Part shown: one piece after another, positions 31,234-33,063 of the stretch
Numbering within the stretch: the first letter of the stretch is position 1
Layout: each line of letters starts with the position of its first letter
IMG/VR virus record: IMGVR_UViG_3300048790_000131
Span: 1-35,353 of that record
Direction: 5' to 3' (one strand)
Source: a virus
DNA: 35,353 nt
Notes under the pieces: generated by a model
Told to the model about the DNA's origin: nothing
The model's input: the letters and a program-made list of their open reading frames with translations, nothing else
Database searches by the model: none
Made by a program: the position numbers and the translations under genes

Positions 31234-31473
31234 TTAATCATAAACTGCTCCCGCTCCCGCTCCTGCTCCTGCTCCCGCTCCCGCTCCCGCTCCTGCTCCA
31301 GCTCCTGCTCCTGCTCCTGCTCCCGCTCCCGCTCCCGTTCCTGCTCCAGCTCCTGCTCCCGCTCCCGCTCCCGCTCCAGCTACTGCTCCAGCTCCCGCTC
31401 CAGCTACTGCTCCAGCTCCCGCTCCTGCTCCAGCTCCTGCTCCTGCTCCAGCTCCAGCTCCAGCTATTTTCAT
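31234..31473 (-). CDS. Gly-Ala dipeptide-repeat protein (79 aa)
   Basis: ATG 31473 starts MKIAGAGAG..., then nearly pure Gly-Ala until VYD and stop. It is encoded by about 37 GGAGCN hexamers. N varies freely among A, T and G, which is silent in this frame (Ala wobble), with only two GTA (Val) and one ACG (Thr) changes. The other open frame would swap Trp, Arg and Gly. This supports Gly-Ala as the selected reading. No signal or membrane segment besides the repeat. Low-complexity Gly-rich proteins are often found next to relatives of the 31498 gene; function is unknown. No good Shine-Dalgarno precedes it. Confidence 0.6.
   Translation of the reverse strand: MKIAGAGAGAGAGAGAGAGAGAVAGAGAGAVAGAGAGAGAGAGAGTGAGAGAGAGAGAGAGAGAGAGAGAGAGAGAVYD
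31245..31467. repeat. Imperfect tandem hexanucleotide repeat (GGAGCN)
   Basis: About 37 units of GGAGCN on the minus strand. The unit length is a multiple of three, so unit gain or loss keeps the frame of the Gly-Ala protein. A tract this long is expected to change length by slippage during replication and is also a spot where assembly may have lost or added units. Confidence 0.9.
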
Positions 31474-32050: not shown

Positions 32051-32242
32051 CTCTGCCTGTATAGAAGAAAGTGGTTCTGTGTTAACATTTTTTTCAATAT
32101 CGCGTAACACCACCTCAAGCTGCTCCACTCGGGCTACTAACCAGTTAGCATCACTATAGTTTAGTGAACTGACGTAGCATAAAAATCCTCCATATGGATC
32201 ATTCCTATCTTTAATCTCCTTCAGCTTCTCTTGTGGTGTCAC
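32009..32242 (-). CDS. Small coiled-coil protein with repeat-module C-terminus (77 aa)
   Basis: Starts as ATGA on the methyltransferase stop. The middle NWLVARVEQLEVVLRDIEKN is a coiled-coil helix like the one in the gene at 33078. It ends EEALNTGPKPGAQE; the last 42 nt match the 3' end of the unrelated gene at 33768 in 40 positions. No enzyme motif. Confidence 0.7.
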   Translation of the reverse strand: MTPQEKLKEIKDRNDPYGGFLCYVSSLNYSDANWLVARVEQLEVVLRDIEKNVNTEPLSSIQAEEALNTGPKPGAQE

Positions 32243-33063
32243 TTATCCTCCGAGCCAGGTGGATAACCTGTGTTAATCCCCATTAAACGCTCAAACGCTT
32301 CTCTTGCTTGGGCCGGTACAACTGCATTGCCCAATCCTCTAAGACGGTCCACTCGGCATTGTATCCCATTAGCCATTCTACCCACGTCGGGTTCAATTGC
32401 CCACCAACTGCGGTTGAAAGGGCTGTGCCGCCTTGTTGATATTTTGTTTTTCTGTGGCTCGTATCGTCCGCTACTGGAGTCGGCCATATTCTCACTGCAT
32501 CGCAAAGATCTAGGCTCTTTCGTTTGGATGTCCGATTTGTTAGGTCTCGTCCGCCCCTCGAATCGTGAGTCATTGGAGTGGGCCAATAAGAACCATCTTT
32601 CTCGTATGTGCGGGGCTCCAACTTCTGAGGCTGATATAATAGTCCACCGAGAATCATACCCGAGCGCAGTGAGCTCCAACAAAACTCTATCAAGCCCCCG
32701 AACAGAGATAGCTGGGACGTTCTCCAAGAAAATGTATCTCGGTCGAATTTCACTTGCCAATCGCACGATTTCAAAGAAAAGTCCGCTTCGCTTTCCTTCC
32801 AAGCCCTTTCCATGTCCTGCAACACTAAGGTCTTGGCAGGGGAATCCCCCGTAGATAATATCGATTTCTGGTAACATGGTCCCTTTAAGCGATGTAACGT
32901 CGTCCCAGATTGGTGCTCTAGGAATGTCTCCGTCAAACATACGGGACAGAAGAACAGATTGGGCATATCTGTCGACTTCACAATAGGCGATAGGCCTAAC
33001 CCATTCTTTGAGGGCAATTGTGATTCCTCCGATTCCGCTAAATAAATCCAGGCCATTTAACAT
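32239..33063 (-). CDS. C5 cytosine DNA methyltransferase, phage type (274 aa)
   Basis: Methylates C5 of cytosine in duplex DNA. Motif I: LDLFSGIGGITIAL (5-18). Motif IV: GGFPCQDLS with catalytic C76. Motif VI: ENV (114-116). Motif VIII: HIRERWFLLA. Motif X: GLGNAVVP (243-250). The target-recognition region between VIII and X is short (about 60 aa). Probably protects phage DNA from host restriction. AAGGA lies 9 nt before ATG 33063. The whole length is overlapped in another frame by a second family (32283). It ends in a variant of the repeat module (NTGYPPG) and as ATGA on the next gene. Confidence 0.93.
   Translation of the reverse strand: MLNGLDLFSGIGGITIALKEWVRPIAYCEVDRYAQSVLLSRMFDGDIPRAPIWDDVTSLKGTMLPEIDIIYGGFPCQDLSVAGHGKGLEGKRSGLFFEIVRLASEIRPRYIFLENVPAISVRGLDRVLLELTALGYDSRWTIISASEVGAPHIRERWFLLAHSNDSRFEGRTRPNKSDIQTKEPRSLRCSENMADSSSGRYEPQKNKISTRRHSPFNRSWWAIEPDVGRMANGIQCRVDRLRGLGNAVVPAQAREAFERLMGINTGYPPGSEDK
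32283..33056 (-). CDS. Overprinted methyltransferase-companion protein (WPTP/LNPTWVEWLMG family, 257 aa)
   Basis: Open for 257 codons inside the methyltransferase gene, same strand, other frame. It reads as a known type of protein that accompanies phage C5 methyltransferases: AKTLVLQDMERAWKESEADF (74-93), FSWRTSQLSLFGGLIEFCWS then SGMILGG (109-139), two WPTP motifs (158 and 191), and GGQLNPTWVEWLMGYNAEWT (218-237). The usual family ending is LNPxWVEWLMGxPxGWT; here YNAEW replaces the P...GW. GGGGGG lies 7 nt before ATG 33056 as a possible ribosome site. Biochemical role is unknown. If not translated, the coincidence of so many family motifs would be hard to explain. Confidence 0.6.
   Translation of the reverse strand: MAWIYLAESEESQLPSKNGLGLSPIVKSTDMPNLFFCPVCLTETFLEHQSGTTLHRLKGPCYQKSILSTGDSPAKTLVLQDMERAWKESEADFSLKSCDWQVKFDRDTFSWRTSQLSLFGGLIEFCWSSLRSGMILGGLLYQPQKLEPRTYEKDGSYWPTPMTHDSRGGRDLTNRTSKRKSLDLCDAVRIWPTPVADDTSHRKTKYQQGGTALSTAVGGQLNPTWVEWLMGYNAEWTVLEDWAMQLYRPKQEKRLSV

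Follow-up and report, generated by a model that had tools for sequence, protein, structure and literature searches.

In the viral contig analysed here (the window, 35,353 nt, with portal, major head, terminase and integrase genes), two overlapping reading frames probably encode one two-subunit C5 cytosine DNA methyltransferase, a reading to which we give a probability of roughly 0.83. Frame A would provide the catalytic chain. Frame B, at A+1 and overlapping A over 774 of 825 nt, would provide a small-domain subunit made of an N-terminal extension, two WPTP modules and motif IX. The two chains would assemble into a heterodimer as the active enzyme, and methylation of the phage DNA would then shield it from host restriction. 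Both frames are conserved and under selection, the methyltransferase motifs are split between them, the second half of B is homologous to a region of single-chain enzymes, and the modules are shuffled among B proteins. The features of the locus are listed in Table 1.

Table 1. Features of the overlapping methyltransferase frames, in window positions.
Feature	Position	Strand	Size and basis
Frame A, putative catalytic subunit of C5 cytosine methyltransferase (motifs I–VIII and X)	32239..33063	(-)	274 aa; PF00145, phrog_363 and M.HhaI matches
Frame B, proposed recognition subunit (target-recognition modules and motif IX)	32283..33056	(-)	257 aa, 774 nt; phrog_1008, in-frame selection, open in relatives
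A motif I, DLFSGIGG (SAM binding)	33025..33048	(-)	sequence
A motif IV, GGFPCQD, catalytic Cys	32830..32850	(-)	sequence; aligned to M.HhaI
A motif VI, ENV	32716..32724	(-)	sequence
A motif VIII region, IRERWFLLAH	32578..32607	(-)	sequence
A motif X, GLGNAVVP	32314..32337	(-)	sequence
B start MAWIYLAES, ATG 7 nt after A start	33030..33056	(-)	+7/+4 start in most of 80 relatives
B SWRTSQLSLF motif, overprinted on A motif VI region	32700..32729	(-)	sequence
B first WPTP module, proposed target-recognition cassette	32487..32585	(-)	sequence, module comparison
B second WPTP module, WPTPVADDTSHRKTKYQQGGTALST...	32397..32486	(-)	by-eye similarity to module cluster 3
B motif IX, LNPTWVEWLMGYNAEWT	32346..32396	(-)	place and spacing homologous to single-chain motif IX; A 4-fold sites nearly frozen

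Both frames lie where the preliminary description had placed them, and the features that it listed for B (AKT...AWKE, SWRTSQ, SGM..GG, two WPTP and LNPTWVEWLMG) are all present, as is the double-coded stretch from which the same DNA gives one peptide in A and another in B. Its statement that A has all key motifs had to be corrected. Frame A carries motifs I, IV (PCQ), VI (ENV), VIII and X of PF00145 enzymes and matches PF00145 (E 1.9e-41), phrog_363 (E 1.6e-71) and M.HhaI (phmmer E 6e-23, residues 3-180), but the PF00145 alignment stops at position 211 of the 324 in the profile, and motif IX and the target-recognition region are absent from this chain and located in B instead. The DNA of the B motif IX encodes GRMANGIQCRVD in A, directly before A motif X. 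Frame B matches phrog_1008 (E 4e-23, residues 67-205) and, by tblastn, 254 phage records. Searches of Pfam, NCBIfam and PDB sequences with frame B or its profile returned no match, and an AlphaFold model of frame B alone was poor (pLDDT 59, pTM 0.27). Elsewhere in the window, positions 31245-31465 hold a 6/12-bp tandem repeat of CTGCTCCCGCTC (18 copies, 85% matches), in which open frames on both strands read (AG)n, (SR)n or (WS)n; it is possibly a repetitive protein or a phase-variable tract.

Selection on frame B was assessed in 80 viral loci fetched with A alone (L012–L091), whose best segments are mostly 45–61% and up to 74% identical. All 80 keep frame B essentially open, over a mean of 96% of A compared with 21% for frame +2. 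Under a null model in which the A protein and codon usage were kept and synonymous codons permuted, 20,000 permutations of the window A gave a mean of 7.7 frame-B stops and never reached zero. The preliminary description had named common stops in close relatives and a lack of selection on B as evidence that would speak against its reading; across the 81 genes, 0.30 frame-B stops per locus were observed against 6.9 expected, an approximately 20-fold depletion, and 68 genes were free of stops. The similarity of the frame-B peptides to the window B also exceeded the A-preserving null (z median 7.3, lowest 3.8, above 3 in 80 of 80). Frame +2 was rejected as a third coding frame, with 15.6 stops observed and 14.8 expected; its own similarity excess (z median 3.7) arises because A and B together fix bases.

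Among 466 related pairs, the rates at A codon positions 1/2/3 were 0.24/0.15/0.42 within motifs I–VIII and 0.51/0.39/0.37 between motifs VIII and X. The fastest position in the latter stretch is the wobble base of B, so this stretch evolves as B. At 4-fold sites of A beneath the B motif LNPxWVEWLMG, the difference was 0.07–0.08, compared with 0.71–0.73 at sites without B, namely the first 20 A codons where B starts late and the codons past the B end. Other bins showed a moderate reduction, for example 0.48 at A codons 81–100 in the group where B starts with A. Selection genuinely acts on frame B. That it is instead a chance open frame, an untranslated shadow of the conserved codons of A, would agree with its almost complete overlap with A and with the annotation of a single frame in most records, but is extremely improbable given the depletion of stops, the frozen silent sites of A under the B motif IX and the sharing of modules in frame B without similarity in frame A (described below). 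Furthermore, in Samy, RemusLoopin and Medusa the overlap is only partial, and B ends with motif X and runs alone past the end of A.

The pairing of the two frames was constant among the loci recovered with B. All 90 phage and viral loci (10 phages and 80 viral contigs, some of the contigs shared with the set fetched with A) and all 80 loci from prokaryote genomes, mostly bacterial with one archaeal bin, have an overlapping A with B always at +1, which bears out the earlier suggestion of a lock to the methyltransferase by overprinting. None of these 170 loci had B as a gene of its own in the absence of A, and in the split forms that were found B remains next to A or overlaps it in part. The B profile was positive in 15 of 369 genomes sampled at class level around an Acinetobacter genome. 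The +1 frame is open over 76–100% of the gene in methyltransferases that carry the B motif in it, whereas in control methyltransferases of the same bacterial genomes, with a recognised in-frame motif IX, it is closed or broken, with 6 of the 20 control loci not classifiable by the script. Annotation is uneven: both frames are annotated in the GenBank phages K1G, Lily (as “g62 internal gene”), Gryphonian and PhiXhv-18, and only one frame in many other phage records. In Pseudomonas phage phPA-G (L010, 1501-2229), only frame B is annotated, as a “hypothetical protein”, and the catalytic frame A was missed. Escherichia phage K1G (L348) carries a more distant methyltransferase (SPPCQ) with a +1-frame B containing WPTP and LNPAHSRWLMGYPQEW.

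The identity of B was approached through single-chain and split relatives. VRedHorse gp68 and about 25 viral relatives from Actinobacteria phages are single chains, in which motifs I–VIII are followed by LPTP modules, the motif (R)Lxx(A/P)x(F)xEWMMGxPxGW and IGNGVVP. In the mycobacteriophage members, the segment from VIII to X likewise contains the LPTP modules and (F/W)xEWMMGxPxGW, all in one frame. The profile of the window-type B matches the single-chain enzymes between VIII and X (E 3e-14 to 9e-6, the E-values being for 14 chosen sequences), and in one of these enzymes the PF00145 match spans the region and reaches profile position 317 of 324. LNP..EWLMG stands at the same distance from the GN of motif X as motif IX does from motif X in ordinary methyltransferases. 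An AlphaFold model of one single-chain form (pTM 0.69), with a confident motif IX–X part and low confidence in the LPTP module region, matches the M.HhaI and M.HaeIII structures. On the strength of the profile matches, the spacing, the PF00145 run and this model, LNPxWVEWLMGxPxGWT is assigned as motif IX. Since the second half of B is homologous to the VIII–X region of the single-chain enzymes, it would supply the recognition region and motif IX that A does not have.

By homology, B is predicted to be the half that the methyltransferase otherwise lacks, with the recognition region and motif IX, and does not form a companion family of its own; the earlier proposal of a separate family arisen by overprinting was not upheld: its C-terminal half has counterparts in single-chain methyltransferases. 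Only the N-terminal part of B, over A motifs I–VIII, and the stretch of A between VIII and X look overprinted. It is unlikely that A is instead complete, with a very short recognition region, and that B arose de novo by overprinting as an accessory protein acting in regulation or against restriction. Such an arrangement would fit the presence in A of motif X and most catalytic motifs, as well as the absence of a Pfam match for B, but A has no motif IX, its VIII–X stretch is not conserved as protein, and the homologous part of B fills exactly that gap in the single-chain relatives.

The B proteins mostly contain 1–5 WPTP modules with a median of 35 aa; the window B has two, of roughly 30 aa each. 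Modules 65–90% identical were shared by B proteins that often have less than 20% identity in the 90 residues ahead of the module, and a shared module stood at a different index in 73 of 130 cases. Under symmetric criteria, module pairs at least 55% identical in unlike contexts numbered 297 in frame B and 1 in frame A, many of these pairs not being independent, as the loci are related and modules recur. The same module DNA had a mean identity of 0.66 in B and 0.32 in A. The maximum number of modules was 5 in overlapping forms and 8 in KBurrousTX gp80 (L293), a separate B-type gene in which LPTP/LLTP modules precede motifs IX and X, resembling a multi-cassette recognition subunit.

Multispecific C5 methyltransferases of the SPbeta phage group carry exchangeable recognition cassettes of roughly 40 aa. 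Because of these cassettes and the shuffling described above, the WPTP modules are most likely exchangeable target-recognition cassettes, shuffled among unlike B proteins; a role in reading the DNA target follows from their position, homology and shuffling rather than from a structure. We lean, by a little, towards a broader proposal in which B is a modular specificity subunit. Each cassette of about 35 aa would read a DNA target, and from phage to phage cassettes would be exchanged, duplicated and lost with the second frame staying open, possibly giving several specificities per enzyme.

Regarding expression, an AAGGA and a G6 run precede the A start, and the B start is only 7 nt further downstream. 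Counted from the A start, most of the 80 relatives have an ATG or GTG at +7 or +4. Both chains may come from a single mRNA on which ribosomes load at one region and start at either of two ATGs 7 nt apart. We consider it very unlikely that B is reached from A by ribosomal frameshifting, which would produce an A–B fusion similar to the single-chain enzymes. Single-chain and split forms do alternate among close mycobacteriophage relatives, some of them with possible sequencing frameshifts, but in a window-type locus, ribosomes that moved into B would no longer read motif X, whose codons are in frame A past the IX region. Moreover, a late shift explains neither the conserved start of B nor its conserved N-terminal half over motifs I–VIII. 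Near the single-chain mycobacteriophage methyltransferases, three loci (L319, L323 and L325) show a one-base shift of the catalytic frame inside A or at its end, representing either real splits or sequencing errors.

Fully overlapping genes on the same strand are rare in prokaryotes, and the usual view is that an old gene has been joined with a new one. In the two-subunit reading preferred here, the two frames would be two halves of one enzyme, an arrangement that recurs in phages, bacteria and at least one archaeal genome, and intermediates are known: single chains, splits with little overlap, partial overlap and full overlap. Two separate genes occur in KBurrousTX (gp79/gp80), Murai (6/5) and Jumbo (35/36). 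The division of one enzyme into halves, its recurrence and these intermediates make the origin and upkeep of a gene overlap testable within one family. Gene callers mostly retain a single frame, so many phage methyltransferases appear in records as a “hypothetical protein” or with only half of the enzyme; cloning, the prediction of specificity and work on anti-restriction would be misled by such annotation. Overlapping-frame C5 methyltransferases are already known as isolated cases, and their wide spread is described here. The phenomenon itself is not new, given the split of M.EcoHK31I, the streptococcal overlaps and the doubly annotated GenBank phages. Among the texts searched, which left most subscription papers and REBASE outside, none gave the second frame the recognition region, its spread or the module shuffling.

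In M.EcoHK31I, the gene for the small chain is contained in that for the large chain, in a different frame. According to a published summary of this YGGCCR enzyme (Lee 1995, as summarised in PMC3404938), it consists of two polypeptides, a large one with motifs I–VIII and X and a small one with only motif IX, and the predicted recognition domain was placed in the large subunit (PMC3404938). Compared by this published description, the window type is alike in having I–VIII and X in the large chain A and IX in the small chain B; it is unlike it in that the recognition region is assigned by homology to B here and to the large chain there (PMC3404938). M.EcoHK31I is, furthermore, part of a restriction-modification system, whereas the window enzyme sits in a phage. 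In M.AquI (CYCGRG), the small chain carries motifs IX and X according to the same passages, and the split between motif VIII and the distal part is shared with the window type (PMC3404938). Motif X of the window type is in A, so that a small chain with both IX and X is not found there; this M.AquI-like split occurs in Samy, KBurrousTX, Murai, Medusa and RemusLoopin (L005, L006, L007, L292, L293). Total overlap of C5 methyltransferases, called a striking feature, is described for S. thermophilus phages of the 5093 group, S. pneumoniae phage MM1 and Tn5252 (PMC5601072). The window type likewise has one DNA stretch specifying two products in separate frames, here at +1 over most of the longer frame, and adds the motif split and the recognition modules, which do not appear in the passages on the streptococcal overlap (PMC5601072). 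Frame B is a member of the phrog_1008 family, and some records annotate both frames, as in the pairs K1G gp34/gp35 and Lily gp62/gp63; the family is labelled only “DNA methyltransferase”, a label from which the proposed recognition and motif IX role of B is absent. The single-chain enzymes VRedHorse gp68 and Tweety gp72 share LPTP modules, motif IX and the fold with the window type and, unlike it, consist of one chain in one frame.
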